Positions 10,061 to 37,610 of a stretch of 64,000 nucleotides of DNA are shown piece by piece; the first letter of the stretch is position 1; each line of letters begins with the position of its first letter. The translations under genes and the position numbers were made by a program. A model generated the notes under the pieces. That model did not search any database, had not been told where the DNA came from, and was given only the letters and a program-made list of their open reading frames with translations. Source of the stretch: Ideonella alba (GTDB lineage Bacteria > Pseudomonadota > Gammaproteobacteria > Burkholderiales > Burkholderiaceae_C); NCBI RefSeq assembly GCF_018069875.1, contig NZ_JAGQDF010000004.1, forward strand, positions 124,001 through 188,000. The letters are read 5' to 3'.

Positions 10061-11968
10061 TTGCGCTGCAACAGGCTGGTGTCAGCCAGGGCTGACCACA
10101 ATCAAGGCTCCGCCACCGCCGCGCCGCCGCCTGTGCCCAACGCCTTCAACTTCGGCATCTCGCCCTTCGACTGCCTCGGCAACGACGAGCGGCAGCTCGT
10201 GCGTGACCACCTGGACATCGCCTACTTCCGCGCCGGCGACACGGTGCTGGACCCGGCCACCGCGCCCACCCACCTGTTCATCGTGATCAAGGGCACGGTC
10301 GAGCAGCGCGACGGCGACGAGCTCGTCGGCCGCTACGGCCCCGAGGACAGCTTTGACGGCCGCGCGCTGGTGGCCGGCAAGGTCTCCAGCCGCTTCGTGG
10401 CTGCGGAAGAGGTGCTGGCCTACCAGCTGGCGCGCCAGGCGGTGGCCGAACTGATCTCGCGCAACGCCACCTTCGGCGCGCTGCTGTTCGCCGACCTGTC
10501 GAAGAAGCTCTCAGCGCTGTCGGCGCGCGGCAGCCAGCACGAGATGCAGTCGCTCAGCATGGCCCGCGTCGGCCAGGCCAGCGTGCGGCCGGTGCAGACG
10601 GTGGACGCCGGCACCGACATCGTCTCGGTGGTGCGCGTCTTCAGCGACAGCCGCACCGACCACGTGCTGGTGCGCGACACGCTGAGCGACCCGCCGCGCC
10701 TGGGCATCTTCACCACCACCGGCCTGCAGCGCGCCATCCTGCACGGCACGCCGCTGGACCAACTGCCAGTGCGCGAGCTGGCCACCTTCAAGCTGGTCAG
10801 CGTGTCACCCGATGACTACCTGTTCGACGCCCAGGCGGTAATGATCCGCCACAAGGTGCGCCGCGTGGTGGTGGCCACGCGCACCGAATCGGGAAGCGAG
10901 ACCATCCTGGGCACGCTCGACCAGCTCGACCTGCTGAGTTTCCTGTCCAACCACAGCTACCTGATCACGCGGCAGATCCTGGAAGCCACCGACCTGGACG
11001 GCCTGAAGACCGCCGCCGGCCAGATCAACGGCCTGATCAGCCTGCTCTACCGCGGCGGCACGCCGGTGGCGCTGGTGGCGCGGGTGGTGCAGGAGCTCAA
11101 CGCGCAATTGTTCGAGCGCGCCTGGCGTCTGATCGCGCCGGAGGAGCTGGTCGACAACAGCTGCCTGTTCGTGATGGGCAGCGAGGGCCGCGGCGAGCAG
11201 CTGCTGAAGACCGACCAGGACAACGCGCTGATCCTGCGCGACGGCTACGCGCCGCCTGCGGACCTGGCGGACATCTGCCAGCGCTTCTCAGATGCCCTGA
11301 CCGACTTCGGCTACCCCGAATGTCCGGGCCGCATCATGCTCAGCAACCCGGAATGGCGCCACCCGGCGGCCGAGTTCGCGCAGACGGTGCGCCGCTGGCT
11401 GGTGATGCCCACGCCCGAGAGCCTGATGGCGCTGGCCATCTTCATCGACGCCCATGCGGTCTGCGGCGACGCCCACCTGCTGGAGGACGTGCGCGCCGAG
11501 GTCTTCAAGCTGGTCACCGACAACGACGCGCTGATGGCCCGCTTCGCCGCCGCGATCAACGCCTTCGAGTCCGGCCAAGGCTGGTGGAACCGTCTGCTGG
11601 CGCTGGGCGACGAGGGCCAGCAGCTCGACCTGAAGAAGGCCGGCACCTTCCCGCTGGTGCACGGCGTGCGCGCACTGGCGCTGGCCCACCGCATCCCGGC
11701 CACCGGCACCGTGGCGCGCATCGAGGCGCTGGCCGCCGACAGCCGCCTGCCGCCCGACCTGGCCACCAGCCTGGTCGACAGCCTGCACTTCTTCATGGGC
11801 CTGAAGCTCAAGACCGGCCTGGACGCGCTGGAGCGCGGCGAGCGCGCCGGCGGCATCCCGCTGAACCAGCTCAGCAGCCTGGACCGCGACCTGCTGAAGG
11901 ACGCGCTGGGCGTGGTCAAGCGCTTCCGCACCATGCTGCACCAGCGCTTCCGCCTCGATATGGTCTGA
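10061..11968 (+). CDS. cNMP-binding/CBS/DUF294 nucleotidyltransferase-like signalling protein
   Basis: Multi-domain cytoplasmic regulator of the DUF294 type. Domain order is a cyclic-nucleotide-binding-like beta-barrel (about residues 35-135, including FIVIKGTVEQRDGDELVGRYG), a CBS pair (about 155-300), a nucleotidyltransferase-like domain with GSEGRGEQLLKTDQDNALIL (from about residue 373) and the DUF294 C-terminal domain. GS-x10-12-D-x-D is the classic nucleotidyltransferase signature and is intact. The N-terminus is uncertain: the longest frame begins with TTG at 10061, while GTG codons at 10079 and 10133 are alternatives and the conserved part begins near VPNAFNFG. In related genomes this family sits beside a DnaQ-like exonuclease and an acetate-type sodium symporter; here the exonuclease follows directly and actP lies about 4 kb on. 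Adenine-nucleotide sensing is inferred. Confidence 0.88.
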   Translation: MRCNRLVSARADHNQGSATAAPPPVPNAFNFGISPFDCLGNDERQLVRDHLDIAYFRAGDTVLDPATAPTHLFIVIKGTVEQRDGDELVGRYGPEDSFDGRALVAGKVSSRFVAAEEVLAYQLARQAVAELISRNATFGALLFADLSKKLSALSARGSQHEMQSLSMARVGQASVRPVQTVDAGTDIVSVVRVFSDSRTDHVLVRDTLSDPPRLGIFTTTGLQRAILHGTPLDQLPVRELATFKLVSVSPDDYLFDAQAVMIRHKVRRVVVATRTESGSETILGTLDQLDLLSFLSNHSYLITRQILEATDLDGLKTAAGQINGLISLLYRGGTPVALVARVVQELNAQLFERAWRLIAPEELVDNSCLFVMGSEGRGEQLLKTDQDNALILRDGYAPPADLADICQRFSDALTDFGYPECPGRIMLSNPEWRHPAAEFAQTVRRWLVMPTPESLMALAIFIDAHAVCGDAHLLEDVRAEVFKLVTDNDALMARFAAAINAFESGQGWWNRLLALGDEGQQLDLKKAGTFPLVHGVRALALAHRIPATGTVARIEALAADSRLPPDLATSLVDSLHFFMGLKLKTGLDALERGERAGGIPLNQLSSLDRDLLKDALGVVKRFRTMLHQRFRLDMV

Positions 11969-23321: not shown

Positions 23322-24800
23322 TCAGAAGGGGAAGGCCGGCGGTGCGGCCTTGAGGGTGAGCCACTGCCAGCGCGTGTACTCGTCAATGTCCGCCGGGCCG
23401 CCCACGGCGCTGCCGTTGCCGCCCAGGCCTGGACCGCCGAAGGGGTTGGTGCACTCGTCGTTGACCGTCTGGTCGTTGATGTGGACCATGCCGGCGTTGA
23501 GCTGCTCGCCAATCGCCATGGCCCGCGCCACGTCGCGGCCGATCACCGCGGCCGCCAGGCCGCCCTGGCTGGTGTTGGCCAGGGCCACGGCCTCCTCGTC
23601 GCTGGCGAAGCTGACCAGGTTGACCACCGGGCCGAAGGGCTCCTCGTCGAAGGCGCGCATGCCCGGCTGGACGCCCGACAGCACGGTCGGGCGGTAGCAC
23701 AGGCCCTCGTGGGTGCCGCCGGCCTCCAGCGTCGCGCCCTGCGCCACGCTGTCCTTCACCACGCTGTCGAAGCGCTGCAGCTGGCGGGCGTCGATCATCG
23801 GGCCCAGGGCCACCTGGCCGCTGGCGCCGTCGCCCACCGGCAGGTGCCGGGCCTTGCCCACCAGGCGCTCGCGAATGCCGGCGGCCACCGCCTCGTGCAC
23901 CAGCACGCGGTTGCTGGCCATGCAGATCTGGCCCTGGTGGAACCAGGCCCCGAAGGCGGCGGCACTGGCCGCGGCGTCCAGGTCGGCGTCGTCCAGGATG
24001 ATCAGGTTGTTGGCCCCGCCCAGCTCCAGCGAGACCTTCTTCAGGTGCCGGCCGGCCAGCTCGCCGATGCGCCGCCCCACCGCGGGCGAGCCGGTGAAGG
24101 CGATCATCGGCACGCGCGGGTCCGTCACCAGGGCCTCGCCGGCCTCGGCGTCGCCCGGCAGCACCTGCAGCAGGCCGTCGGGCAGCCCGGCGTGTTTGAA
24201 CGCCTCGGCCATGATCACGCCGCCGGACAGCGGGGTGCGCGGATCAGGCTTGAGCACCACCGCGTTGCCCAGCGCCAGCGCCGGGGCCACCGAGCGGATG
24301 CCCAGGATCAGCGGGAAGTTGAACGGCGAGATCACGCCCACCACGCCGTGCGGCACGCGCCGGGCGATCGACAGCCGCCCCGGCACCGAGGGCAGCACCT
24401 GGCCCTGGGCCTGCATCGGCAGGCCGGCGGCGATCTGGCAGATCTGGATCGCCTCCTTCACCTCGTGCTGGCCCTTGGGCACGATGCCGCCGGTCTCGCG
24501 GGCGATCAGCAGGGCCAGCTCGTCGAAGTGCGCCTGCAGCCACTGCGCCGCGCGCAGCAGCACCGCGGCGCGTTCACGCGCCCCGGTGGCGACCCAGTCG
24601 CGCTGGGCGGCGTGGGCATGGCCGATCGCCTCGTTCATGTCCTCGGCATTGGCGATGCCGGCGTGCGTCAGGACCGCGCCGGTGGCGGGCTCGTGCACGG
24701 CGCGTGCACCGCCGCGCGCGGGGCGCCATTGGCCGCGGTCGAAAACGTGGCCACTGGCCGGGGCAGCGTCGAACAGGCTGAGGGTCTCGGGGGCTCCCAT
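23322..24800 (-). CDS. Benzaldehyde/vanillin-type aldehyde dehydrogenase
   Basis: NAD(P)-dependent aldehyde dehydrogenase, 492 residues, converting an aromatic aldehyde to the acid. Visible motifs: Rossmann region FTGSPAVGRRIGELAG, general-base Glu in SLELGGANN, nucleophile Cys in FHQGQICMASNRVL, and EEPFGPVVNLV. The C-terminal GGPADIDEYTRWQWLTLKA is typical of the benzaldehyde/vanillin/coniferyl aldehyde group. ATG 24800 has AGGAG upstream. It is the first gene of the minus-strand operon that continues with the CalA-like SDR, and the -24/-12-like promoter lies about 60 bases upstream. Which aromatic aldehyde is the physiological substrate cannot be decided here. Confidence 0.9.
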   Translation of the reverse strand: MGAPETLSLFDAAPASGHVFDRGQWRPARGGARAVHEPATGAVLTHAGIANAEDMNEAIGHAHAAQRDWVATGARERAAVLLRAAQWLQAHFDELALLIARETGGIVPKGQHEVKEAIQICQIAAGLPMQAQGQVLPSVPGRLSIARRVPHGVVGVISPFNFPLILGIRSVAPALALGNAVVLKPDPRTPLSGGVIMAEAFKHAGLPDGLLQVLPGDAEAGEALVTDPRVPMIAFTGSPAVGRRIGELAGRHLKKVSLELGGANNLIILDDADLDAAASAAAFGAWFHQGQICMASNRVLVHEAVAAGIRERLVGKARHLPVGDGASGQVALGPMIDARQLQRFDSVVKDSVAQGATLEAGGTHEGLCYRPTVLSGVQPGMRAFDEEPFGPVVNLVSFASDEEAVALANTSQGGLAAAVIGRDVARAMAIGEQLNAGMVHINDQTVNDECTNPFGGPGLGGNGSAVGGPADIDEYTRWQWLTLKAAPPAFPF

Positions 24801-24857
24801 GGTCGGGTCTCCTGGATGGTGGAAGGGGATGCAGCCGGGCAACCGGCCCGTGCTGCT

Positions 24858-24874
24858 TTGCAAACCGCAGGCCC
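24858..24874 (-). promoter_or_regulatory. Candidate sigma-54 (-24/-12) promoter of the aldehyde dehydrogenase operon
   Basis: On the minus strand GGGCCTGCGGTTTGCAA keeps the two invariant doublets at exact spacing: GG (24873-24872) and GC (24861-24860) are separated by 10 bases, and the -12 half reads TTGCA. The -24 half is GGC rather than the full TGGCAC. The expected start site is near 24849, about 50 bases before the ATG at 24800. The divergent gene encodes a sigma-54-dependent activator, which supports the call. Confidence 0.6.
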
Positions 24875-24980
24875 TGCGGCATGCCTGGCCGCCGCGCGGG
24901 GGCGCCAGGGTGTCGGCGCTTCCGAGGTGAACTCCGGACTTTCCCGGCCCCCCAGGCGGGGCTCCGCGGCACATCCGGCG

Positions 24981-25027
24981 ATCAGGATTAACCCTGATCA
25001 GGGCTTGATGTATTGATCAGGTCAAGC
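24981..25027. promoter_or_regulatory. Two dyads, candidate upstream activating sites for the XylR-type regulator
   Basis: ATCAGG-N6-CCTGAT (24981-24998) and GCTTGA-N13-TCAAGC (25003-25027) are perfect inverted repeats, and both contain or border TGATCA cores. XylR/DmpR/HbpR activators bind TTGATCAA-rich dyads 100-200 bases upstream of the -24/-12 promoter. Here the centres are about 120-150 bases from the -12 element at 24860, and the sites also overlap the likely regulator promoter, allowing autoregulation. Confidence 0.6.
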
Positions 25028-25060
25028 CCACACTGGCGCCCTTTGCCTGCTGAAATCCGC

Positions 25061-26821
<1,761 letters not shown>

Positions 26822-28264
26822 TCAGCGCCGCTGCCGCACCCTCGCATACGCCCGCCAGAACCCCGCATCCTGGCTGGTCGCGAAGTTGATGCGCATCAGC
26901 GTGGTCGGCTGCCGCCGGGCATGGAACAGGTGGCCGGGGGCGAGCAGCCAGCCGTCGTCGTGCATGGCCTGGGCCAGGGCTTCGGTGTCGGTGCCGGTGT
27001 CCACCCAGCCGAACAGGCCGGCGGGTGGCGTGACGAAGCGGCAGCCGTGGGCTTCGGCCAGTTGCACGGTGCGCAGGCGGGCGCCGTCCAGGCGCTGCAC
27101 CACGCGCTCGGCATGGCGGCGCAGCGCGCCCTGCTCCAGGCACAGCGCCATGGCCTGCTCCAGCAGCGCGGGCGTGGTGAGGGTGGACAGCAGCTTGGTG
27201 TCGACCAGGCGCTCCACCAGCGTCTGCGGTGCGGCCAGGAAACCCACGCGCCAGCCGGGCGACAGGATCTTCGAGAAGCCTGAGACATAGAGCGTGCGCT
27301 GCAGGCCGTCCAGCGCCGCCATGCGCGGCAGGTGCGGCGGCGCCAGGTGGGCGTAGGTGTCGTCTTCCACCACCCAGAAGTCGTGCGCCTCGGCCAGCTT
27401 CAGCACCTGGTGGGCGGTGCCCAGGCTGAGCGAGCCGCCGGTGGGGTTGTGCAGCACCGACACGGTCACGTACAGGCGCGGCTGGTGGGCCTGCACCAGC
27501 GCGGCCATCACCGCCAGGTCGGGGCCGTCGGGTGTGCGCGGCACCGGCAGCAGCCGCACGCCCAGCTGCGTCAGGCGGGCGTATTCCACCGCCCAGGCGG
27601 GCTCATCCACCAGCACCGCGTCGCCCGGGCGCAGCAGGGTGCGCGAGATCAGGTCCAGCGCATGCGTGGCGCCGGTGGCGGTGATGATCTGGCGCGGCTC
27701 GGCGCGCACGCCGAAGTCGGCCAGGCGCACCGCCAGCGCGTGGCGCAGTCGCGGATCACCGGACGGGTGGCCGTACTGCAGCGCGGCCACCGGGTCGGCC
27801 TGGGTCAGCACGCGGCGCAGCGTGCTGGTCAGCAGCGGCAGGTCCAGCCAGTCGGGCGGCAGGGTGCCCAGGCCGGGCGCAGGGCGGTCGCCCGCACCCG
27901 CGAACATGCCGCGGATCAGTGCGGTGGCATCCACCGGCGGCGTCAGCGCGGGGGCGCTGCTGGGTGTGGCGGGGCGGTGCTGGGCGTCGCGCACGAAGAA
28001 GCCGCGCTGGCGGCGCGCTTCCACCAGGCCCTGGGCCAGCAGCTGGTCATAGGCGGCCACCACGGTGTGCGGGCTGACGCCGTGGCGGCGCGCGCATTCA
28101 CGCACCGACGGCAGGCGCGCGCCAGGCGCCAGCAGGCGCTGGCGGATGCGCTCGGTGAACTGCGCGGCCAGCTGCTCGGCCAGGGTCTGGCCGGCGTGGC
28201 GGGCCAGGGTGCCGGGGCTGGCGGGCGGCGGGGCGGTGGTGGGATCGAACTCGCGGGCGGCCAT
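26822..28264 (-). CDS. MocR-family (GntR/aminotransferase fusion) transcriptional regulator
   Basis: Chimeric regulator of 480 residues: an N-terminal GntR winged helix-turn-helix (about 25-95, LPSVRECARRHGVSPHTVVAAYDQL) joined to a fold-type I aminotransferase-like domain with the PLP lysine in VSGFSKILSPGWRVGF and the HNPTGG motif. MocR proteins sense PLP or PLP-amino-acid adducts and control PLP, amino-acid or taurine/GABA genes. It is divergent from lysE, the first gene of a five-gene operon containing racemase and aminotransferase genes. A tandem 11-bp repeat (28334-28355) in the shared region is the likely operator. The product could have residual transaminase activity, but regulation is the usual role. 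Confidence 0.92.
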   Translation of the reverse strand: MAAREFDPTTAPPPASPGTLARHAGQTLAEQLAAQFTERIRQRLLAPGARLPSVRECARRHGVSPHTVVAAYDQLLAQGLVEARRQRGFFVRDAQHRPATPSSAPALTPPVDATALIRGMFAGAGDRPAPGLGTLPPDWLDLPLLTSTLRRVLTQADPVAALQYGHPSGDPRLRHALAVRLADFGVRAEPRQIITATGATHALDLISRTLLRPGDAVLVDEPAWAVEYARLTQLGVRLLPVPRTPDGPDLAVMAALVQAHQPRLYVTVSVLHNPTGGSLSLGTAHQVLKLAEAHDFWVVEDDTYAHLAPPHLPRMAALDGLQRTLYVSGFSKILSPGWRVGFLAAPQTLVERLVDTKLLSTLTTPALLEQAMALCLEQGALRRHAERVVQRLDGARLRTVQLAEAHGCRFVTPPAGLFGWVDTGTDTEALAQAMHDDGWLLAPGHLFHARRQPTTLMRINFATSQDAGFWRAYARVRQRR

Positions 28265-28333
28265 GATGAATCAGGGAGAACCCGCGCTGTAGCGATCGGC
28301 CGACCGATACAGATCATGCGGGTGCGCTGGACA

Positions 28334-28355
28334 ACTGTACTGGTACTGTATTGGT
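28334..28355 (+). promoter_or_regulatory. Tandem 11-bp direct repeat, candidate MocR operator
   Basis: ACTGTACTGGT (28334-28344) is followed immediately by ACTGTATTGGT (28345-28355), two head-to-tail copies with one mismatch. Head-to-tail repeats one helical turn apart are the usual binding site of dimeric MocR regulators. The repeat lies in the 112-base region between the MocR and lysE genes and covers the -35 position of the putative lysE promoter. Confidence 0.65.
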
Positions 28356-28363
28356 AGGCTGCC

Positions 28364-28369
28364 TACACT
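28364..28369 (+). promoter_or_regulatory. -10-like hexamer of the lysE operon
   Basis: TACACT ends 7 bases before the lysE ATG at 28377, predicting a start of transcription at or near the initiation codon. The tandem operator repeat sits just upstream, over the -35 region, which is itself poor and would suit an activator-dependent promoter. Confidence 0.45.
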
Positions 28370-28376
28370 GTCCAGC

Positions 28377-28994
28377 ATGGACGCGCTGCCCTGGACCGAC
28401 TTCATCGCCCTGCTGGGCGTGGTCACGGCCATGGCCTTCACGCCGGGGCCCAACACCATGCTGTCGGCCGCGCTGGCGGTGAACCGCGGGCTGCCGGCGG
28501 CGCTGCGCTTCTGCCTGGCGGTGCCGGTGGGCTGGTGCCTGATGCTGCTGGCCTGCGCGCTGGGCCTGGGCGCGCTGATCCAGGCCTGGCCGGCGCTGCG
28601 CGGCGCCATCACCGTGGCCGGGCTGGGCTATCTGCTGTGGCTGGCGGGGAAGCTGTGGCGCAGCGGAGAGCTGGGCGAGGCCGACGCGGCGCGGCTGCAG
28701 GTGGGTTTCTGGCAGGGCGTGGCGCTGCAGTTCGTCAACATCAAGGCCTGGATGGCGGCGCTGATGGTGGTGGCCGGCTGGGTGGCGCCCGGCGCGGCCG
28801 AAGGCTTCTGGGCCCGGCTGGCGGTGGTGCTGCCGGTGATGGCGGCCTATGCCTTCGCCAGCAACGCCAGCTACGCGCTGCTGGGCGGCCTGCTGCGCGG
28901 CTGGCTGGCCCGCGGCGCGCGGCTGCTGTGGTTCAACCGCACGATGGCGCTGCTGCTGCTGGCCACCGCTGTGTGGATGGCGAGGACGGCATGA
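28377..28994 (+). CDS. LysE/RhtB-family amino-acid exporter
   Basis: Inner-membrane exporter of 205 residues with about six hydrophobic segments. The signature AFTPGPNTMLSAALAVNRG at residues 20-40 is the LysE/RhtB N-terminal motif, and FVNIKAWMAAL later matches the F-x-NPKA-type motif (NIKA here). Such proteins export amino acids such as lysine, homoserine, threonine or their analogues. It is the first gene of an operon whose next four genes are each joined by overlap or a 1-base gap, and it faces the MocR regulator. The amino acid exported is unknown; the operon suggests one that is also racemised and transaminated. Confidence 0.9.
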   Translation: MDALPWTDFIALLGVVTAMAFTPGPNTMLSAALAVNRGLPAALRFCLAVPVGWCLMLLACALGLGALIQAWPALRGAITVAGLGYLLWLAGKLWRSGELGEADAARLQVGFWQGVALQFVNIKAWMAALMVVAGWVAPGAAEGFWARLAVVLPVMAAYAFASNASYALLGGLLRGWLARGARLLWFNRTMALLLLATAVWMARTA

Positions 28995-29875
28995 ACTCGG
29001 CCAACAAGGGGTTGATGATCGGCGCGCTGGGCGTGCTGATCTTTGCGATGACGCTGCCGATGACGCGGCTGGCCGTGGGCCCGCTGGAGGCGCCGCAGCT
29101 GCCGCCGGCCTTTGTCACCGCGGGCCGCGCGGCCGGCGCGGGGCTGCTGAGCGTGGTCTACCTGTGGGCAGTGGGCGCGGCGCGGCCGCGCGGCGCACAG
29201 TGGGGCCTGCTGGGCGTGAGCGCGCTGGGCACGGTGCTGGGCTTTCCGCTGGGGCTGGCGCTGGCGCTGCGGCAGGTGCCGTCGATGCATGCGGCCGTCA
29301 TCACCGGTCTGCTGCCGCTGGCCACCGCGGCCATCGCCGCGCTGGCGCTGCGCCAGCGCGCGTCGCTGGGCTTCTGGGTCTGTGCGGTGCTGGGCTGCGC
29401 GCTGGTGCTGGCCTTTGCCGCCTTTGAGGGCGGCGGCGCGTTGGTGGCGGCGGACGGCTGGCTGCTGATGGCGATGCTGTGTGCCTCGGGCGGCTATGTG
29501 GCGGGCGCACGCCTGACCGCGCAGATGCCGGCCGAGCAGGTGATCAGCTGGGTGCTGGTGATGAGCCTGCCGCTGACGCTGCCGGCCGCGGCCTGGAGCG
29601 CGCCGGCCAGCTTCGCCAGCGTGCAGGCGGCGTCCTGGGGCGCCTTCGCCTATGTCACGCTGTTCTCGATGTGGTTGGGCTTCTTCGCCTGGTACCGCGG
29701 GCTGGCGCTGGGTGGCGCGCTGCGGGTGAGCCAGGTGCAGCTGATCCAGCCCTTCCTGTCGCTGCTGCTGGCGGTGCCGGTGCTGGGCGAGGCGCTCAAG
29801 CCCTCGACGCTGGGGTTTTCAGTGGCGGTGATCGCCGTGGTGTTCGTGGGCAAGCGCATGCCCGTGGGGAGATGA
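28991..29875 (+). CDS. EamA/DMT-family transporter in the lysE operon
   Basis: Ten-helix-type transporter of 294 residues with two EamA repeats, the second ending in LGEALKPSTLGFSVAVIAVVFVGKR. ATG 28991 overlaps the lysE stop as ATGA. The N-terminus (MNSANKGLMIGALGVLIFAM) differs from the EamA proteins at 1-598 and 48705-49598, so it is not a recent copy of these. Two different putative exporters in one operon suggest export of two metabolites or redundancy. Substrate unknown. Confidence 0.87.
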   Translation: MNSANKGLMIGALGVLIFAMTLPMTRLAVGPLEAPQLPPAFVTAGRAAGAGLLSVVYLWAVGAARPRGAQWGLLGVSALGTVLGFPLGLALALRQVPSMHAAVITGLLPLATAAIAALALRQRASLGFWVCAVLGCALVLAFAAFEGGGALVAADGWLLMAMLCASGGYVAGARLTAQMPAEQVISWVLVMSLPLTLPAAAWSAPASFASVQAASWGAFAYVTLFSMWLGFFAWYRGLALGGALRVSQVQLIQPFLSLLLAVPVLGEALKPSTLGFSVAVIAVVFVGKRMPVGR

Positions 29876-29876
29876 G

Positions 29877-30587
29877 ATGAGGACGATGGGGCTGCTGGGC
29901 GGCATGAGCTGGGAATCGACCGCGGTGTACTACCGCCTGATGAACCAGGGCGTGGCCGCGCGCCGCGGCGGGCTGCACAGCGCGCCGCTGCGCCTGGCCA
30001 GCGTGGACTTTGCCGAGGTGGCCGCGCTGCAGCGCGCCGGCGCCTGGCAGCAGGCGGGCGAGCTGCTGGGCCGCACCGGCGCCGGGCTGCGCGCGGCGGG
30101 CGCGCAGGCGCTGCTGATCGCCACCAACACCATGCACAAGGTGGCCGACACCGTGGTGCGCGAAAGCGGCCTGCCGCTGCTGCACATTGGCGATGCCACC
30201 GGCCAGGCGCTGCGCGCCGCGGGCGTGCGCCGCGCCGGCCTGCTGGGCACGCGCTTCACGATGGAAGACGGCTTCCTGGCGCGCCACCTGAATGAGGGCT
30301 ACGGCATCGACGTGGCCGTGCCGGCCGAAGCTGACCGCGCCGAGGTGCACCGCATCATCTTCGACGAGCTGTGCCGCGGCGTGCAGCACGACTCGTCACG
30401 CGCCACGTTCGCGCGCATCATCGGTGCGCTGGCCGAGTCCGGCTGCGACGCCGTGATCCTGGGCTGCACCGAGATCTCGCTGCTGGTGGACCCGGCGGTG
30501 CCCGGCTGGCCCGTGCCCCTGTTCGACACCACCGCGCTGCATGCGCAGGCCGCGGTGGACTGGATGCTGCAAGAGGAGACCGCATGA
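29877..30587 (+). CDS. Aspartate/glutamate racemase family protein (YgeA-like)
   Basis: Cofactor-independent amino-acid racemase of 236 residues with the opening MRTMGLLGGMSWESTAVYYR and the second catalytic motif ILGCTEISLLV (Cys). At the first catalytic position the sequence reads IATNTMHK: a Thr (residue 83) instead of the usual Cys. The E. coli YgeA-type enzyme, described as an L-Asp/Glu-specific racemase with Thr83/Cys197, has the same replacement, so this looks like a subgroup feature and not inactivation. The gene starts one base after the EamA stop and its end overlaps the aminotransferase start. Substrate in this organism is unknown. Confidence 0.88.
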   Translation: MRTMGLLGGMSWESTAVYYRLMNQGVAARRGGLHSAPLRLASVDFAEVAALQRAGAWQQAGELLGRTGAGLRAAGAQALLIATNTMHKVADTVVRESGLPLLHIGDATGQALRAAGVRRAGLLGTRFTMEDGFLARHLNEGYGIDVAVPAEADRAEVHRIIFDELCRGVQHDSSRATFARIIGALAESGCDAVILGCTEISLLVDPAVPGWPVPLFDTTALHAQAAVDWMLQEETA

Positions 30588-31795
30588 ACTCGATCTGGAC
30601 CCTGGCGCGCCGCGCCGACCGCCTGAACCCGTCGATCATCCGCGAGATCCTCAAGGTCACCGAGCAGCCCGGCGTGCTGTCGCTGGCCGGCGGCCTGCCC
30701 TCGGCCGAGACCTTTCCCATCGAGGCGATGCGCGAGGCCTGCGCCCAGGTGCTGACCGACACACCGAAGGAAGCGCTGCAGTACGCCGCCAGCGAGGGCT
30801 ACGGCCCGTTGCGCGAGTGGGTGGCGGCCACGCTGAACGCGCAAGGCCAGCAGGTGAACGCGGCGCAGGTGCTGATCACCACCGGCTCGCAGCAGGGCCT
30901 GGACCTGGTGGCCAAGGTGCTGGTGGATGCCGGCGCGCCGGTGGCGGTGGAAACGCCCACCTACCTGGGCGCGCTGCAGGCCTTTGCGCCTTTCGAGCCG
31001 ATCTTCGCCAGCGTGGCCAGCGACCACGAGGGCCCGCTGCCCGGCGCGATCGAGGCGCTGCGCCACGACGCACCCGGCTGTCGCTTCCTCTACGTGCTGC
31101 CCAACTTCCAGAACCCCTCGGGCCGGGTGATGCCCGAGGCGCGCCGTCAGGCGGTGGTGGCCGCGGCGCAGGCCGCGCGCGTGCCGCTGGTGGAAGACAA
31201 CCCCTACGGCGACCTGTGGTTCGACGCGCCGCCCGCGCGCCCGCTGGCCGCGCGCTGGGCCGAGGGCACGGTCTACCTGGGCTCGTTCTCCAAGGTGCTG
31301 GCGCCGGGTCTGCGCCTGGGCTATGTGGTGGCGCCGCCCGCGCTGCACCCCAAGCTGCTGCAGGCCAAGCAGGCGGCCGACCTGCACACGCCGGGCTTCA
31401 ACCAGCGCGTGGTGCACCAGGTGATCAAGGACGGCTTCCTGGACCAGCACATCCCCACCATCCGCGCCCGCTACCGCGCCCAGCGCGACGCCATGGCCGC
31501 CGCGCTCACCGAGCACCTGCCCGCCGGCAGCGAGTGGAGCGCGCCGCAGGGTGGCATGTTCTTCTGGGTGCGCCTGCCCGCCGGCTGTCACGCGATGGCC
31601 ATGCTCGACAGCGCAGTCCATGCCGGTGTGGCCTATGTGCCGGGCGAGGCCTTCTACGCCCATGCGCCCGACCGCCGCACGATCCGCCTGTCCTTCGTCA
31701 CGCTGGGGCCCGAGGAGATCCGTCAGGCGGTGGCGCTGCTGGGCGGCGTGATCCGCCGCCACCTGAACGAGGAACTGCAGGAGGACACGCCGTGA
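30584..31795 (+). CDS. PLP-dependent class I aminotransferase (LysN/2-aminoadipate type)
   Basis: Fold-type I aminotransferase of 403 residues without the HTH domain of MocR. The N-terminus SIIREILKVTEQPGVLSLAGGLPSAETFP is typical of the 2-aminoadipate/multi-substrate LysN group. NFQNPSGRVM contains the Asn that contacts PLP, EDNPYGDLWF supplies Asp and Tyr contacts, and the Schiff-base Lys is in LGSFSKVLAPGLRLGY. ATG 30584 overlaps the racemase stop as ATGA. The operon context suggests it transaminates the amino acid made by the racemase or exported by LysE. The donor and acceptor cannot be named from sequence. Confidence 0.9.
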   Translation: MNSIWTLARRADRLNPSIIREILKVTEQPGVLSLAGGLPSAETFPIEAMREACAQVLTDTPKEALQYAASEGYGPLREWVAATLNAQGQQVNAAQVLITTGSQQGLDLVAKVLVDAGAPVAVETPTYLGALQAFAPFEPIFASVASDHEGPLPGAIEALRHDAPGCRFLYVLPNFQNPSGRVMPEARRQAVVAAAQAARVPLVEDNPYGDLWFDAPPARPLAARWAEGTVYLGSFSKVLAPGLRLGYVVAPPALHPKLLQAKQAADLHTPGFNQRVVHQVIKDGFLDQHIPTIRARYRAQRDAMAAALTEHLPAGSEWSAPQGGMFFWVRLPAGCHAMAMLDSAVHAGVAYVPGEAFYAHAPDRRTIRLSFVTLGPEEIRQAVALLGGVIRRHLNEELQEDTP

Positions 31796-32625
31796 TCCAC
31801 CGCTTCACGCAGCTGGATGTGTTCACCGCGGTGCCGCTGCGCGGCAACCCGCTGGCCGTGGTGCACGACGCCGACGGCCTGAGCGACGCGCAGATGGCCG
31901 CCTTCGCGCGCTGGACCAACCTGAGCGAAACCACCTTCCTGCTCGCGCCCACCCAGGCCGAGGCCGACTACCGCGTGCGCATCTTCACCCCCGGCGGCGA
32001 GCTGCCCTTTGCCGGCCACCCCACGCTGGGCAGCGCCCACGCCTGGCTGGCCGCCGGTGGCGATGCCAAGCGCCCGGGGATGGTGGTGCAGGAATGCGGC
32101 GTGGGCCTGGTGCGCGTGCGGCGCGACGGCGCGCGGCTGGCGTTTGCGGCGCCGCCGCTGCGGCGCAGCGGCCCGGCCGATGTCGACACCTGCGCCCAGG
32201 TGGCCGATGCCCTGCGCGTGCGGATGGACGAGTTGCTCGCCGTCGAGTGGGTCGACAACGGCCCCGGCTGGATCGCCGCGCAACTGGCCGACGCGGATGC
32301 CGTGCTGCGCCTGCAACCCGACTTCGCCGCGATGCGCGGCCTGAAGCTGGGCGTGGTGGGCGCCTACCCGGCGGGTGCCGAATGCGCCTTCGAGGTGCGG
32401 GCCTTCGTGCCCGGCCTGGGCGTGCCCGAGGACCCGGTCACTGGCAGCCTCAACGCCGGCCTGGCGCAGTGGCTGATCGGCAGCGGCCGCGCGCCGGCGC
32501 GCTACGTGGCCTCGCAGGGCCTGGCGCTGGGCCGCGCCGGCCGCGTGCACGTGGCACAGGACGGCGACACGGTGTGGATCGGCGGCGATGTGGCGCCGTG
32601 CATCAGCGGCACGGTCAGCCTCTGA
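31792..32625 (+). CDS. PhzF-family isomerase-like protein
   Basis: PhzF/diaminopimelate-epimerase-fold protein of 277 residues starting at GTG 31792, which overlaps the aminotransferase stop as GTGA. It opens with VIHRFTQLDVFTAVPLRGNPLAVV, has the catalytic Glu in NLSETTFLL (about residue 46), GELPFAGHPTLGSAHAW, and ends with the EDPVTGSLNAGLAQWL motif. PhzF itself isomerises a phenazine precursor, but most members, including this one outside any phenazine cluster, have unknown substrates. It closes the five-gene operon; the convergent Lrp gene ends 6 bases later. Confidence 0.9.
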   Translation: MIHRFTQLDVFTAVPLRGNPLAVVHDADGLSDAQMAAFARWTNLSETTFLLAPTQAEADYRVRIFTPGGELPFAGHPTLGSAHAWLAAGGDAKRPGMVVQECGVGLVRVRRDGARLAFAAPPLRRSGPADVDTCAQVADALRVRMDELLAVEWVDNGPGWIAAQLADADAVLRLQPDFAAMRGLKLGVVGAYPAGAECAFEVRAFVPGLGVPEDPVTGSLNAGLAQWLIGSGRAPARYVASQGLALGRAGRVHVAQDGDTVWIGGDVAPCISGTVSL

Positions 32626-32631
32626 CGTCCC

Positions 32632-33102
32632 TCAGGCAATCGGCAGCGCCAAGCTGCGCTTGAGCGGCTCGATCACCACCTGGGTGGTGATGCGGCTGAT
32701 CTGCGGCACCTCGGCCATCAGGCGGGCGCACAGCGCGTCGTAGGTGGGCATGTCGGACGCCAGCACCACGGCCACCAGGTCGGCCTCGCCGGTCACGTAC
32801 CAGGCCTGCTGCACCGCCGGCTCGGCGGCCAGCCAGGCCTTCAGCCGCGGCAACGCGGCGTAGTTGTCGCGGCCAATCGTCAGGCCGGCGATCAGCGTCA
32901 GGCCGCGGCCCATCACCGCGGGGTCGAGCACCGCCACCTCGGCCTGGATCACGCCGCGCTCGCGCAGCCGCTTCAGGCGCCGCTGAACCGCCGACGCCGA
33001 CAGGCCGATCTCGGCCGCCAGCGCCTCGGCCTTGCAGTGCGCATCGGCCTGCACGCGGGTCAGCAGGTGGCGGTCGAAGTCGTCCAGCTCGGGCAGGCTC
33101 AT
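32632..33102 (-). CDS. Lrp/AsnC-family transcriptional regulator
   Basis: Feast/famine regulator of 156 residues: an N-terminal helix-turn-helix (about 5-60, FDRHLLTRVQADAHCKAEAL then IGLSASAVQRRLKRLRERGVI) and an amino-acid-sensing RAM domain (about 70-150). It is divergent from the PLP C-S lyase-like gene, a classic regulator-target arrangement, and both start regions carry -10-like hexamers very close to the ATG (TAGACT at 33116-33111 for this gene, 8 bases away), suggesting a leaderless mRNA. Sulfur amino acids are likely effectors by context only. Confidence 0.92.
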   Translation of the reverse strand: MSLPELDDFDRHLLTRVQADAHCKAEALAAEIGLSASAVQRRLKRLRERGVIQAEVAVLDPAVMGRGLTLIAGLTIGRDNYAALPRLKAWLAAEPAVQQAWYVTGEADLVAVVLASDMPTYDALCARLMAEVPQISRITTQVVIEPLKRSLALPIA

Positions 33103-33207
33103 CGGCGCGCAGTCTAGCTGCGTCCGCGGGTGGCCTGCTGCGGCCAGACCGCATGGGTGGGCCTCGCTTTGCGGCCGCGCCGCGCACGCGCCGCCGACAC
33201 TGCCGCG

Positions 33208-34440
33208 ATGTCCGACCGACCCGCCGCCGACCCCGCCTGGGGCCTGGCCACCACCGCGCTGCACGCCCACCTGCAGCCCGACGCCGCCACCGGCGCGATC
33301 CAGCCGGGCATCGCGATGTCGGTCAACCACCTGTTCACGCCGGGCGAGGCCGCCTTCTCGGCCCAGGGTGTGGACGATCTGGCCCAGCTGCCCTACCTCT
33401 ACGCCCGCTGGGGCAACCCCACGGTGCGCCAGCTGGAGCAGCGCCTGGCCGCGCTGGAAGGCGCCGAGGACGCGCTGGCCACCGCCACCGGCGTGGCTGC
33501 GGTGGCCGCCGTCTGTTTCGGCCTGCTGCGCGCGGGCGACCATGTGCTGCTCAGCGACGTCTGCTATGCCGGCGCGCAGGAGCTGGTGCGCACGCTGCTG
33601 CCCGACTTTGGCGTGGCGGTCAGCGCCGTCAACCTGTCGGACCTGGACGCCGTGCGCGCCGCGATGCGGCCCACGACGCGGCTGGTCCATGCCGAGACGC
33701 CCTGCAACCCGCTGCTGCGCCTGACCGACCTGCGCGCGCTGGCCGACATCGCGCATGCGCACGGGGCGCTGCTGTCGGTGGACTCCACCCTCGCCACGCC
33801 GGTCTTCAGCCGTCCGCTGGCCCACGGTGCCGACCTGGTGCTGCACTCACTGACCAAGTTCATCAACGGCCATGGCGACGCGCTGGGCGGCGCGGTGATC
33901 GGGCCACGCGCGCTGATCGCCCGGCTGCGGGCGCGGGCCGGCGTGTACCTGGGCGCCACGCTGTCGGCGCACAACGCCTGGCTGATCCTGCGCGGCATCG
34001 ACACGCTGGACGTGCGGCTGCGCCGCGCCGCCGAGTCGGCCGGCCAGATCGCGCGCTGTCTGCAGACCCACCCGGCCGTGCGCACCGTCACCTGGCCCGG
34101 CCTGCCCGACCACCCGCAGCATGCGCTGGCGCAGCGCCAGATGCCGGGATTCGGCGCGGTGCTCACCTTCCAGGTCCACGCACCCGGCCCGCAGGTGGCC
34201 CGGCGCCTGGCGCGCCATCTGCGCGTGGCGCACTACGCCTTCTCGCTGGGCCACCAGCGCAGCCTGGTGGTCTGGCTGGGCACCGACGAGATGCTGGCCA
34301 GCAGCTACCCGCTGCAGGGCGCCGCGCTGGCCGACTACCGCCGCTTTGCCGGCGACGGCGTGTTCCGCCTGAGCGTGGGCCTGGAAGACCCGGCCGACCT
34401 GATCGCCGACCTGGACCAGGCGCTGCGCGCCACCGATTGA
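33208..34440 (+). CDS. Cys/Met-metabolism PLP enzyme (cystathionine gamma-synthase/lyase family)
   Basis: Trans-sulfuration family enzyme of 410 residues. Motifs are YARWGNPTVRQLEQRLAALEG (phosphate and substrate Tyr/Arg region), ETPCNPLLRLTDL, the catalytic Asp in VDSTLATP and the PLP Lys in HSLTKFINGHGDALGG. The ETPCNP and SLTKF segments fit methionine gamma-lyase, cystathionine lyases or synthases equally; the DNT motif usual in cystathionine enzymes is DST here. ATG 33208 follows GACACT by 6 bases. It faces an Lrp regulator and is followed by an amino-acid binding protein and homocysteine methyltransferase, which favours a role in sulfur amino-acid turnover. Confidence 0.88.
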   Translation: MSDRPAADPAWGLATTALHAHLQPDAATGAIQPGIAMSVNHLFTPGEAAFSAQGVDDLAQLPYLYARWGNPTVRQLEQRLAALEGAEDALATATGVAAVAAVCFGLLRAGDHVLLSDVCYAGAQELVRTLLPDFGVAVSAVNLSDLDAVRAAMRPTTRLVHAETPCNPLLRLTDLRALADIAHAHGALLSVDSTLATPVFSRPLAHGADLVLHSLTKFINGHGDALGGAVIGPRALIARLRARAGVYLGATLSAHNAWLILRGIDTLDVRLRRAAESAGQIARCLQTHPAVRTVTWPGLPDHPQHALAQRQMPGFGAVLTFQVHAPGPQVARRLARHLRVAHYAFSLGHQRSLVVWLGTDEMLASSYPLQGAALADYRRFAGDGVFRLSVGLEDPADLIADLDQALRATD

Positions 34441-34461
34441 ACGTTCACCCCAAGGACCCCC

Positions 34462-35289
34462 ATGACCCTGCTGTTCCCTGCCACGCGCCGCACCTGGCTG
34501 CACGCCACCACCGCCCTGGCCCTGGCCACCCTGCTGGGCGCCTGCGGCCAGCGCGAGGCCGCCACCACCGCGGCCGCACCGGCCCCCGCCTCGGCCGCTT
34601 CGGCACCCGAGCGCGAGCTGGTGGTGGGCACCGACGCGGTCTACGCGCCCTTCGAGTACCAGGACGAGAAGGGCCAGATCGTCGGCTTCGACATCGACGT
34701 GCTGCGTGCCACCGCCGAGGCCGCCGGCCTGCGCGTGCGCTTCGTCAACACGCCCTGGGAGGGCATGTTCAACACCCTGCTGCAGGGCGACCGCGACGTG
34801 CTGGTCTCGGCGATCACGATCACCGACGAGCGCCGCCAGACCATGGCCTTCAGCGCGCCCTACTTCGACGCGGTGCAGTTGATCGCCGTGCCCAGCGCCT
34901 CGAAGGTGGCGCACTTCGCCGACCTGAAGACCCTGCGCGTGGGTGTGCAGACCGGCACCACCGGGGACGAGGCCGCGTCCCAGCTGATGGGCAAGACCAA
35001 CGCCAGGCTGCGCCGCTTTGAATCGACGCCGCTGGCGCTCAAGGAGCTGGAGTCCGGCGGCCTGGACGCGGTGGTGGCCGACAACGGCGTCATCGCCCAC
35101 TATGTGGCGAACAACGGCGGCACGCGCTTCCGCGCGGTCAGCGACCCGGCCTTCGTGCCCGAGCAGTACGGCTTTGCGCTGCGCCCGGCCGACAGCGCGC
35201 TGCGCGAACGCCTGGACGCCGGCCTGCGGGCGATCCGCGCCGATGGCCGCTACGATGCGATCCACACCCGCTGGTTCGGACCGAAGTGA
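34462..35289 (+). CDS. Amino-acid ABC transporter substrate-binding lipoprotein
   Basis: Type II periplasmic binding protein of 275 residues in the polar amino acid/cystine group. The lipobox LLGAC (Cys about residue 28) marks it as a lipoprotein; a low-complexity Ala/Pro linker follows, then VVGTDAVYAPFEYQDEKGQI, FDIDVLRAT, NTPWEGMFNTLLQGDRDVL and YGFALRPAD, all typical of the family. The stop overlaps the next start as TGATG. Neither permease nor ATPase genes are nearby, so it either serves a distant transporter or signals. Sulfur amino-acid binding is inferred from the flanking genes. Confidence 0.9.
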   Translation: MTLLFPATRRTWLHATTALALATLLGACGQREAATTAAAPAPASAASAPERELVVGTDAVYAPFEYQDEKGQIVGFDIDVLRATAEAAGLRVRFVNTPWEGMFNTLLQGDRDVLVSAITITDERRQTMAFSAPYFDAVQLIAVPSASKVAHFADLKTLRVGVQTGTTGDEAASQLMGKTNARLRRFESTPLALKELESGGLDAVVADNGVIAHYVANNGGTRFRAVSDPAFVPEQYGFALRPADSALRERLDAGLRAIRADGRYDAIHTRWFGPK

Positions 35290-36233
35290 TGACCCTGCGC
35301 CCCGACCCCATCGCCGCCTGGCTGGCACGCCGGCCCCACCTGGTGCTGGACGGCGCGCTGGCCACCGAGCTGGAGCGCCGCGGCGCCGACCTGCGCGATG
35401 CGCTGTGGTCGGCGCGCCTGCTGATCGAGCAGCCCGAGCTGATCCGCGCGGTGCACCTGGACTACTTCCGCGCCGGGGCCGATGTGGCCACCACCGCCAG
35501 CTACCAGGCCAGCTTCGAGGGCTTCGCGCGGCGCGGGCTGTCGCACAAGGATGCGGCGGCGCTGATGCGCCTGTCGGTGCGCCTGGCCACCGAGGCGCGC
35601 GACCAGGCGATGGCCGAGCGGGCCGCCGACGATGCCCGGCCCGCGCCGCTGGTGGCCGCGTCCGTCGGCCCCTACGGCGCGGTGCTGGCCGACGGCTCCG
35701 AGTACCGCGGCCACTACGGCCTGGACGAGGCCGCGCTGATCGCCTTCCACCGCCCGCGCCTGCAGCTGCTGGCCGCCAGCGGCGCCGACCTGCTGGCCTG
35801 CGAGACCATTCCCTGCATCGCCGAAGCGCGCGCGCTGGCGCAGCTGATGGACGAGGTGGGCACGCGCGGCTGGATCAGCTTCAGCGCGCGCGACGGCGGC
35901 CACGTCTGCGAGGGCGACACGATCGAGGACGCGGTGGCCGCGGTGCAGGGTGTCGACAGCGTGGTGGCGGTGGGCATCAACTGCACCGCGCCGCAGCACG
36001 TGGCCGAGCTGCTGGCGCGCGCCCGCACCCGCACGGCCAAGCCGCTGCTGGCCTACCCGAACGCCGGCGAGACCTGGGACGCCCAGGCCAAGCAGTGGCT
36101 GCCCTCGGCCGAGTGCGCGCACCGGCCATTCGACGAGATGGCGATGGACTGGGCCGCCGCCGGCGCGCGCCTGATCGGCGGCTGCTGCCGCACCGGGCCG
36201 GCGCAGATCGCGGCACTCTCCCGGCGCTGGTGA
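35289..36233 (+). CDS. mmuM: Homocysteine S-methyltransferase
   Basis: Zinc enzyme transferring a methyl group, usually from S-methylmethionine or SAM, to homocysteine to form methionine. The 314-residue protein starts with PHLVLDGALATELERRGADL and keeps the zinc cysteines in VGINCTAPQ and IGGCCRTGP. ATG 35289 overlaps the binding-protein stop; a GTG one codon earlier is an alternative. No S-methylmethionine permease gene (mmuP) is adjacent, but the upstream binding protein may fill that part. Together with the C-S lyase-like enzyme it forms a methionine/homocysteine recycling group. Confidence 0.92.
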   Translation: MTLRPDPIAAWLARRPHLVLDGALATELERRGADLRDALWSARLLIEQPELIRAVHLDYFRAGADVATTASYQASFEGFARRGLSHKDAAALMRLSVRLATEARDQAMAERAADDARPAPLVAASVGPYGAVLADGSEYRGHYGLDEAALIAFHRPRLQLLAASGADLLACETIPCIAEARALAQLMDEVGTRGWISFSARDGGHVCEGDTIEDAVAAVQGVDSVVAVGINCTAPQHVAELLARARTRTAKPLLAYPNAGETWDAQAKQWLPSAECAHRPFDEMAMDWAAAGARLIGGCCRTGPAQIAALSRRW

Positions 36234-36255
36234 GGCCCGGCGGCACAATCGCCGC

Positions 36256-36927
36256 ATGCAGCACACCGAAGTCGACCATCTGGTGGTCGCCGCCGCCACG
36301 CTGGCGCAGGCCGCCGCCTGGGCCGAGGCCACGCTGGGCGTGACGCCGCAGCCCGGCGGCCGCCACGCGCTGATGGGCACGCACAACGCACTGCTCGGCC
36401 TGGCCGGCAGCGTGTACCCCCAGACGTACCTGGAGCTGATCGCGATCGACCCCGAAGCACCGGCGCCCGGCCGCGCGCGCTGGTTCGGTCTGGACGATGC
36501 CGCGCTGCAGGCGCGCCTGGCGGCCCAGGGCCCCGAGCTGGTCGGTTTCGTCGCCCGCTCCAGCATGGTCGACATGCACCGCTGGGGCCTGATCAACGCG
36601 CACTTCCAGCCCGGACCCATCCTGTCGGCCAGCCGCGAGACGCCCGAGGGCACGCTCAGCTGGAAGATCGTGGTGGCCGACGACGGCCGCCCGCTGGCCG
36701 GCGGCGCGGTGCCCACGCTGATCCAGTGGACCGGGCCGCACCCGGCCACGCGCATCGCCCCCAGCGGGCTGGACCTGACAGCGCTGACCGTGCGCGGCCT
36801 GCCCGATCTGGCGCACCAGGTGCTGCGCCTTCGCCCGCTGACCCGCGCCGCGCTGCCCGGCCCGGCGCTGGAAGCCACGCTGGCCACGCCGCGCGGCCCC
36901 GTCACCCTCGCCACCCACGTCGCATGA
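36256..36927 (+). CDS. VOC/glyoxalase-like domain protein
   Basis: Protein of 223 residues with one evident vicinal-oxygen-chelate module at the N-terminus (VDHLVVAAATLAQAAAWAEATLG, then GTHNALLGL and QTYLELIAIDP) and a more divergent second half, the layout of the Glyoxalase_3-like family. Metal ligands would be His in DHLV and Glu in YLELI. CACAAT (36244-36249) ends 6 bases before the ATG, and no Shine-Dalgarno is seen, so the mRNA may be leaderless. The gene overlaps the following flavin reductase as ATGA. Reaction unknown. Confidence 0.83.
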   Translation: MQHTEVDHLVVAAATLAQAAAWAEATLGVTPQPGGRHALMGTHNALLGLAGSVYPQTYLELIAIDPEAPAPGRARWFGLDDAALQARLAAQGPELVGFVARSSMVDMHRWGLINAHFQPGPILSASRETPEGTLSWKIVVADDGRPLAGGAVPTLIQWTGPHPATRIAPSGLDLTALTVRGLPDLAHQVLRLRPLTRAALPGPALEATLATPRGPVTLATHVA

Positions 36928-37484
36928 TGGATCGACACCTTCTGTTCCTGGTCGCCAGCAGCCGCGAGGCCGGCCACATCGGCAACACCGAGGCGCTGGC
37001 GCGCCACGCCGCCGAAGCGCTGCCCGCCGGCACCCGCCAGACCTGGCTGCGCCTGGCCGACCTGGCGCTGCCACCGTTTGTGGATCAGCGCCACACCGTG
37101 GGCCAGTACCCACCGCCGGAGGGTGGCCTGAAGACGCTGGCTGATTCCCTGCTGGACTGCACCGATCTGGTCGCGGTCAGCCCGGTCTACTGGTTCAGCA
37201 TCCCCGCGCCGCTGAAGCTGGCGCTGGACCACTGGAGCGGCCTGCTGCGCGTGCCGGGGCTGGACTTCAAGGCACGCATGGCGGGCAAGCGCTTCTGGGT
37301 CGTCTCGACCAGCGGCCACCGCGCCAAGGCCCAGCCGCAGTTCGACAGCCTGGCGCTGTGCGCCGAGTTCATGGGCATGCGCTGGATGCCGCCCCTGTGG
37401 GGCCCCGGCGGCGCGCCGGGCATGGTGCAGGGCGATGCGGCACTCTGGGCCAGCGCCCGCGATTGGCTGACGGCAGTGGCCTGA
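36924..37484 (+). CDS. NAD(P)H-dependent flavin oxidoreductase (flavodoxin-like)
   Basis: Flavodoxin-fold FMN reductase or quinone reductase, 186 residues. It has the N-terminal phosphate-binding segment VASSREAGHIGNTEALAR, then VAVSPVYWFSIPAPLKLALDHW, which resembles the SPIYWxxxPxxLKxFiDR motif of NAD(P)H-dependent FMN reductases, and a C-terminal FMGMRWMPPLWGPGG. Translation is coupled to the VOC gene by a 4-base overlap (ATG 36924; an ATG at 36927 is also possible). Cytoplasmic. Electron acceptor unknown. Confidence 0.87.
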   Translation: MMDRHLLFLVASSREAGHIGNTEALARHAAEALPAGTRQTWLRLADLALPPFVDQRHTVGQYPPPEGGLKTLADSLLDCTDLVAVSPVYWFSIPAPLKLALDHWSGLLRVPGLDFKARMAGKRFWVVSTSGHRAKAQPQFDSLALCAEFMGMRWMPPLWGPGGAPGMVQGDAALWASARDWLTAVA

Positions 37485-37610
37485 GCGCGCGCAGACGCCT
37501 GCGGGTGGGCACCAATGCCGCCGCTGGCGCGGCTTGGTAAAGTCTGGATACACATGGGCGCCGCCACACGCAGCAGCGCCTTGTCCATTGACCCACCTCC
37601 AGGGAGTTCC

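Follow-up and report, generated by a model that had tools for sequence, protein, structure and literature searches.

What could bring an amino acid racemase, an aminotransferase and a PhzF-family isomerase together with two exporters, opposite a MocR-type regulator? The locus that raises this question lies at 26822..32625 of a 64,000-nucleotide stretch of the Ideonella alba genome (contig NZ_JAGQDF010000004.1, positions 124,001 to 188,000), which we call the window throughout. A preliminary description of the locus had taken its genes for one translationally coupled unit on an unnamed pathway that converts and exports an amino acid, possibly a D-amino acid. We find that the genes do form one coherent MocR-controlled unit, kept in relatives and with an operator common to them, and we favor the reading, at roughly an even chance, that it is a MocR-activated operon that would clear an accumulating, harmful amino acid.

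Gene layout and its conservation

Five plus-strand genes face the regulator (counts are of relatives, in the samples described below; PLP, pyridoxal 5′-phosphate):

26822..28264, minus strand: MocR-type regulator (GntR winged helix plus class I aminotransferase domain, by Pfam); K332 in 87/87 and R458 in 86/87
28377..28994, plus strand: LysE-family exporter (PF01810); clustered in 48/100
28991..29875, plus strand: EamA/DMT-family exporter (PF00892); clustered in 81/100
29877..30587, plus strand: Asp/Glu-racemase-family amino acid racemase, EcL-DER/YgeA-like (PF01177); clustered in 16/100
30584..31795, plus strand: class I aminotransferase (AT; PF00155), nearest solved relative 2-aminoadipate aminotransferase 2egy; K237 and R368 in 100/100
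31792..32625, plus strand: PhzF-family isomerase (PF02567), GTG start at 31792; E46, H76, D214 and S219 in 91/91; clustered in 90/100

The family assignments of all six genes exceed the Pfam cut-offs, and in the regulator PF00392 covers residues 28-91 and PF00155 residues 157-467. The order, coordinates and tight packing first described for the five plus-strand genes were borne out, with three 4-base overlaps and one 1-base gap: LysE and EamA share an ATGA overlap (-4), EamA and the racemase are separated by a single base (+1), and the racemase/AT and AT/PhzF junctions are overlaps of ATGA (-4) and GTGA (-4), respectively. Between 26700 and 33300, a promoter scan found zero internal promoters on the plus strand, and a terminator scan found four terminator-like sites (shuffles, 1.0), all intragenic, with one in EamA and one in AT on the operon strand and none downstream of PhzF. 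An Rfam scan of 24000-37500 gave no matches. Across relatives, 270 of 362 junctions of gene pairs occurring at least 5 times fall within -20 to +30, a proportion biased towards coupling because the start nearest a 4-base overlap was chosen.

We searched 200 genomes of the host's family and found a relative of AT (E up to 1e-90) in 153 of them; AT is present in 110 of the 141 family genera sampled. The same 200 genomes gave 139 with PhzF and 156 with MocR, both at 1e-60 (the MocR count may take in paralogues), and 62 with the racemase at 1e-20. From 100 of the 153 AT-positive genomes, taken by rank among the matches listed and with some same-genus genomes skipped, we used one AT-anchored region each and annotated it by tblastn, scoring absence at a contig end or behind an insert as absence, as for the PhzF of L127, which lies 6 kb away (L and G numbers are our handles for loci and genomes). 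Early gene calls in relatives were crude and named by eye, and Pfam checks were made afterwards on single examples. Clustered with AT in these 100 regions are PhzF (90), a divergent MocR (89), EamA (81), a glyoxalase-like gene of the VOC family (49) and LysE (48), and less frequently threonine dehydratase (ThrDH, 34), glutathione S-transferase (GST, 33), AlaX (20), the racemase (16) and GNAT (9). MocR, AT and PhzF are jointly clustered in 82 of the 100 regions, and MocR, EamA, AT and PhzF in 69, so that the genes are indeed neighbors in related genomes. Among the 82 loci, 46 lack, in the fetched stretch, every downstream flank gene that was sought (cytochromes, GNAT2, SMP-30-like, aldose-epimerase-like and atp genes, with families checked on single examples), some stretches ending at contig ends, and thus the cluster holds together in differing surroundings. 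Pfam confirms GST, VOC and a PLP-dependent dehydratase in L183, the ThrDH of L087 exceeds the PRK06110 cut-off, AlaX matches in clusters have 62-73% identity, and L102 carries ThrDH, AT, GST, EamA and PhzF.

Beyond the family, AT was found in 41 of 399 genomes of an order sample at 1e-105, 12 of them belonging to the host's family, and in 4 of 274 genomes of a class sample at E 1e-120, three of them in the host's family with the window genome included. The AT regions of all 29 remaining order genomes and of G211 gave 31 stretches in all, and a divergent MocR is present in 13 of them. Here an overlapping repertoire recurs in other orders, read outward from MocR as VOC, AlaX, LysE, EamA, RidA, AT, GST (L241, L248); ThrDH, LysE, EamA, RidA, AT (L234, L255); ThrDH, LysE, AT, GST, EamA, PhzF (L258); and VOC (plus EamA in L251), AT, RidA, PhzF (L249, L251). 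RidA adjoins AT in 16 of the 31 loci, lying between AT and PhzF in L249 and L251, and Pfam supports RidA in L233, L241 and L251, the AlaX-type gene, LysE, EamA and GST in L241, and PhzF in L251. This reshuffling is our best evidence that the genes would share a joint function over mere adjacency.

A further set was anchored on PhzF and comprises the best 80 of at least 555 confirmed loci, which favors close relatives (61-76% identity to the PhzF of the window; Burkholderiales, Nocardioides, Tsukamurella, a Cyclobacteriaceae and a Thermaceae assembly). Within 9.5 kb, an AT of the matching kind is found in 49 of these 80 loci, EamA in 40, VOC in 35, MocR in 32 and AlaX in 30, which agrees with the AT-anchored regions.

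Two variations concern the AT-PhzF end of the cluster. Roseateles-type loci (L053, L055, L057, L058, L060, L062, L047) carry between AT and PhzF a branched-chain-type amino acid ABC transporter that consists of a binding protein, a permease, an ATPase and a fused permease-ATPase gene. PhzF is duplicated in tandem in G003 (C1:3933750-3935589), G141, G085, G187, G190, G162 and G211, and the tandem of G141, G190 and G162 sits inside the cluster (merged matches in L195, L198, L204).

Predicted operator and promoter

Four predicted elements lie between MocR and LysE:

28304..28311, minus strand: inverted operator box CCGATACA (one mismatch; 32 bases to the following box, against a mode of 31 among relatives)
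28336..28354, plus strand: double direct operator box TGTACTGG-TAC-TGTATTGG with an 11-base period; window form TGTACTGGTACTGTATTGG
28345..28374, minus strand: sigma-70-like promoter match towards MocR, overlapping the double box (consensus match; 1 against a mean of 0.0 in 50 region shuffles)
28364..28369, plus strand: -10-like TACACT, 9 bases past the double box and 7 before the first ATG

We compared 87 intervals between MocR and the first gene, 86 from the family plus that of the window, with L127, L129 and L145 excluded (3 of 89; at least 420 bases). The commonest 8-mers are TGTATTGG, in 33 of the 87, and CTGTACTG, in 32; no 8-mer exceeded 6 when the bases were shuffled 20 times. With up to one mismatch, TGTRYTGG boxes occur at least once in all 87 intervals and at least twice in 84, where 50 base shuffles average 35 and 8, and the AT interior gives 28 and 2 of 86; the preferred spacings are ++11 (70 pairs), -+31 (50) and +-16 (43). 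The box was derived from these same intervals, and its independent support is a single exact genome match together with double boxes outside the family. Across the 5.5-Mb genome TGTRYTGGNNNTGTRYTGG is matched exactly once, at this locus, and allowing one mismatch gives three, against one for the reversed pattern; that the sole exact double box is here bears on regulon genes elsewhere. In six of the 13 outside-family MocR loci the MocR/first-gene interval holds a double box when one mismatch is allowed, with two positions unconstrained, and the 19-mer double box of the window is identical in L254, L255 and L256 of another family.

TANACT is present in 37 of the 87 intervals. In 34 intervals the in-frame start closest to the promoter is 19-27 bases past the double box; in the other 53 it is elsewhere or none was found. 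In 26 of the 87 the first ATG follows the -10-like element by 6-7 bases, the first gene being LysE, EamA or the racemase. The short distance from the -10-like element to the first ATG suggests that the operon transcript may be leaderless, a feature that is possibly conserved. The predicted minus-strand promoter overlapping the double box is the arrangement that autoregulation of MocR would need, and we infer from known MocR systems that MocR would act as an activator.

Possible functions of the unit and its surroundings

The recurrence of exporters, AT, ThrDH, RidA, GST, glyoxalase-like genes and AlaX points to the removal of an amino acid together with the harm it causes. In the operon that we favor, the aminotransferase domain of MocR would form a PLP aldimine with the accumulating alpha-amino acid, which would switch the operon on; EamA and LysE would export the amino acid; AT, with ThrDH in relatives and the racemase in this clade, would convert what remains; and PhzF, or RidA in other families and both in two loci, would clear or tautomerize the reactive enamine or imine products. 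Electrophiles may be the targets of the GST and glyoxalase-like proteins found in relatives, and mischarged tRNA-Ala that of AlaX, by hydrolysis.

The proteins of the window are consistent with such a scheme and leave its substrate wide. The PLP lysine and the C-terminal arginine of MocR are kept (a single gap accounts for the one relative without R458), which would allow MocR to form an aldimine with an alpha-amino acid; it would presumably be PLP-sensing. AT keeps K237 as its PLP lysine and R368 as its carboxylate arginine, and a LysN-type pair, S17 and R20, which corresponds to Ser20 and Arg23 of LysN, is kept in 99 of 100 relatives. The nearest solved relatives of AT are 2-aminoadipate and kynurenine aminotransferases, 2egy being, we assume, LysN itself. 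LysE scores best with a cysteine/O-acetylserine exporter model, below its cut-off (57 of 193 bits). The conserved residues and solved relatives of MocR, AT, PhzF and the racemase do not fix a substrate; most likely it would belong to the small neutral or hydroxy amino acids (serine, threonine, cysteine, homoserine) or be a toxic analogue of one of these. If the ligand of MocR is identified, the substrate should follow.

Several observations weigh against this clearance operon. The window unit has no ThrDH or RidA and no tRNA-editing factor among its genes, and one AlaX query against the window genome gave just a 33% match in a 933-aa frame, presumably AlaRS, so part of the argument rests on relatives. 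There most GST matches have low identity to the query (33-40% for 25 of the 33), and the AlaX of L093, at 169 bits, is below the AlaXM equivalog cut-off of 300. Within the family, conserved neighbors are partly mere inheritance, with an ABC-F-like gene near in 49 of the 100 regions and ATP-synthase genes in 24. Outside the family, AT stands without cluster partners in 14 of the 31 loci, except for a MocR match beyond AT in L246, and RidA is its sole partner in L244, L250, L252 and L253. AT is missing within 9.5 kb in 31 of the 80 PhzF-anchored loci, including Nocardioides, Tsukamurella and Massilia and some on short contigs, and thus PhzF is not bound to this pathway everywhere and has other roles too. 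On the same side belong the terminator-like sites inside EamA and AT, weak as they are, and PNPOx-like genes that suit the vitamin B6 rival discussed below, one within the L194 cluster and one next to a solitary PhzF in L067. With these points counted, we put the clearance operon at about even, ahead of D-amino-acid production, and with a B6-related regulon as its main rival.

The preliminary description had a D-amino acid as the possible product; neither this nor a central place for racemization was supported. On that reading the unit would make or convert a D-amino acid, or a homoserine-type one, and export it. The racemase passes TIGR00035 (198 vs 93 bits) and resembles the EcL-DER/YgeA racemases over its full length; its Thr83 and Cys197 align gap-free to PDB 5hqt, 5ell and 3ojc, which we take to be EcL-DER. 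It differs from them in falling below the PRK10200 equivalog cut-off (273 vs 417 bits), and its activity is a predicted one. Among the 16 clustered racemases C197 is kept in 16, and T83 in 14, with A in 1 and S in 1. A Thr-for-Cys exchange belongs to the EcL-DER/YgeA type, and YgeA is listed as a homoserine racemase (excerpts of PMC8142540). The Thr/Cys pair and this listing favor the D-amino-acid idea, as does the position of the gene, within 1 kb of AT for 24 of 37 racemase matches at 49% identity or more (counted by eye, window included). Set against them, the racemase is clustered in just 16 of 100 AT-anchored regions while the remaining operon is kept without it, and AT has 2-aminoadipate and kynurenine aminotransferases as its nearest solved relatives. 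The racemase is a clade accessory, and because it is a minority accessory we consider D-amino-acid production quite improbable. We likewise rejected the racemase as the core of the operon; ThrDH, GST, glyoxalase-like genes, AlaX and RidA are what recurs instead.

Could the unit instead serve vitamin B6? In a PdxQ-type regulon of B6/PLP homeostasis, MocR would sense PLP, the exporters would move B6 vitamers or PLP-reactive compounds, and PhzF would act in PLP metabolism. PdxQ regulons hold DMT and LysE exporters, aminotransferases, a GloA-family lyase and PhzF, for which a role with PLP has been suggested (excerpts of PMC5320631), and the best NCBIfam match of our MocR is PdxR, below the cut-off (229 of 320 bits). 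A PNPOx-like gene lies inside the L194 cluster, and in Tsukamurella L067 another (9367-9999) overlaps the called start of the lone PhzF (9986-10834; 69% identity to that of the window). Against this, the defining pdxO/pdxH gene is not among the genes of the window unit, just one cluster in 100 showed a PNPOx-like gene in a check that covered the best open reading frame per gap of more than 380 bases (34 gaps), and AlaX and ThrDH are without an obvious B6 role. We did not assign the locus to PdxQ: an exporter, an aminotransferase and PhzF are there, and pdxO, pdxO2 and pdxH are not between MocR and PhzF. A B6 regulon seems to us rather unlikely.

A narrower relative of the clearance operon would be a dedicated catabolic or resistance locus against a single toxic amino acid of plant or microbial origin, such as a compound resembling vinylglycine or canavanine. 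Exporters, PLP enzymes, GST, glyoxalase-like genes, RidA or PhzF and a tRNA-editing factor do recur together, and canavanine offers a precedent (excerpts of PMC10018355). With AT in so many of the family genera sampled and the majority of the 100 regions holding the cluster, a general internal stress fits better, and we regard a single-toxin locus as unlikely.

The last question is what PhzF does in the unit. A phenazine-type biosynthesis, with PhzF as a dihydro-hydroxyanthranilate (DHHA) isomerase, is suggested by the family and by its four invariant residues, Glu, His, Asp and Ser, whose catalytic roles we assume. No other phenazine-type gene is among the genes of the unit or the four downstream genes scanned; none was seen in the clusters of relatives, where the searches used chosen queries and not phenazine genes; and the best solved match is a yeast protein, 1ym5, which we take to be YHI9, ahead of phenazine PhzF. 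A PHZA_PHZB search of the genome gave zero matches, and its positive controls matched nothing either. With no phenazine gene neighbor among the genes scanned around this PhzF, we rejected phenazine synthesis, which we consider scarcely credible.

RidA offers a different comparison. RidA enamine/imine deaminases take the AT-adjacent position in other-family relatives, whereas the window has there PhzF, of a separate protein family. In the first 114 AT-anchored loci PhzF occurs alone in 91, RidA alone in 6, neither in 17 and both in 0; in the 31 outside-family loci RidA is alone in 14, both are present in 2, PhzF is alone in 1 and neither is present in 14. The six RidA-alone genomes have no close PhzF, four having 35-43% matches elsewhere and two none at E 1e-20. 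Strict replacement was rejected, since in L249 and L251 (2 of 17 later loci) the two genes are adjacent. Few events, rather than many, lie behind the pattern, because the two groups are different families. PhzF-like proteins are widespread, as the PhzF-anchored loci show. The RidA target is an enamine made from serine by Ser/Thr dehydratase that harms PLP enzymes (excerpts of PMC12188003). We tentatively propose, while thinking it doubtful, that PhzF here serves metabolite repair, alongside RidA or in its place, and clears or tautomerizes the enamines or imines that arise when PLP enzymes act on an amino acid in excess; the full regulon, with its exporters, aminotransferase, dehydratase, RidA/PhzF, GST, glyoxalase-like protein and AlaX, would then be a complete response that ejects, dismantles and proofreads against one amino acid sensed by MocR. 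If true, this would give PhzF a general role beyond phenazine synthesis. Such a role can be put to the test in a conserved operon of this kind, where PhzF is associated with RidA, a tRNA-editing factor, amino acid exporters and a ligand-sensing regulator whose operator is predicted.

The surroundings of the unit contain one further gene of the cluster's families:

36256..36927, plus strand: glyoxalase-like (VOC) gene (PF13468), of the family that follows PhzF in relatives; operon membership doubtful

Its protein has 57% identity to the cluster gene of L050 and lies 3.6 kb downstream of the unit, past a block at 32634-36233 in which an Lrp-type regulator (minus strand) stands opposite a Cys/Met-metabolism PLP enzyme, a family-3 solute-binding protein and a homocysteine S-methyltransferase (PRK09485, 409 bits; cut-off 215). 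This block is a separate unit for methionine/homocysteine and seems to have come between PhzF and VOC, an ancestral pair, and we do not claim the VOC gene, although of the cluster's own family, as an operon member. The locus of the window is thus a reduced version of the cluster, with AlaX not found in the genome, VOC displaced downstream and the racemase present. On the other side, the stop of an XylR_N/V4R/sigma54-type regulator (25013-26821, plus strand) directly abuts the stop of MocR (26822, minus strand), with zero bases between.

Relation to known systems

Among the matches listed in the open-licence PMC literature, we found no other paper on this combination and none naming AlaX with it. 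The terms exporter, permease, MocR, isomerase, GntR and Burkholderi- are absent from the Rid-family genomics paper PMC4433059, and the MocR paper PMC4944035 treats, in its excerpts, a different membrane-protein family.

For the tRNA-editing side, the nearest system is CtdA, a standalone editing protein encoded beside a canavanine degradation operon (excerpts of PMC10018355). As in the clusters with AlaX, a harmful amino acid is catabolized there with a factor against mischarging adjacent; the difference is that CtdA has a B3/4 editing domain in place of AlaX, and AlaX was not found in the window genome.

The closest precedent for the unit itself is the work of Suvorova and Rodionov 2016 (excerpts of PMC5320631). 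Their predicted MocR regulons link PhzF to DMT exporters, and their PdxQ regulons include LysE, aminotransferases and GloA-type genes; other MocR regulons there carry RidA and ThrDH, and some were proposed to answer metabolic damage caused by PLP enzymes. The pathway can still be called unnamed, as the preliminary description had it, but MocR regulons that combine PhzF, DMT and LysE exporters and aminotransferases had been predicted in 2016. Our locus resembles the PdxQ group in its MocR, its DMT and LysE exporters, its aminotransferase and PhzF, with a GloA-type gene in relatives, and in an operator of direct and inverted repeats. It differs in a unit that has a racemase and no pyridoxamine-phosphate-oxidase gene, and in the AlaX and GST of its relatives. 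The clearance operon that we favor is an extension of the regulons predicted in those excerpts.

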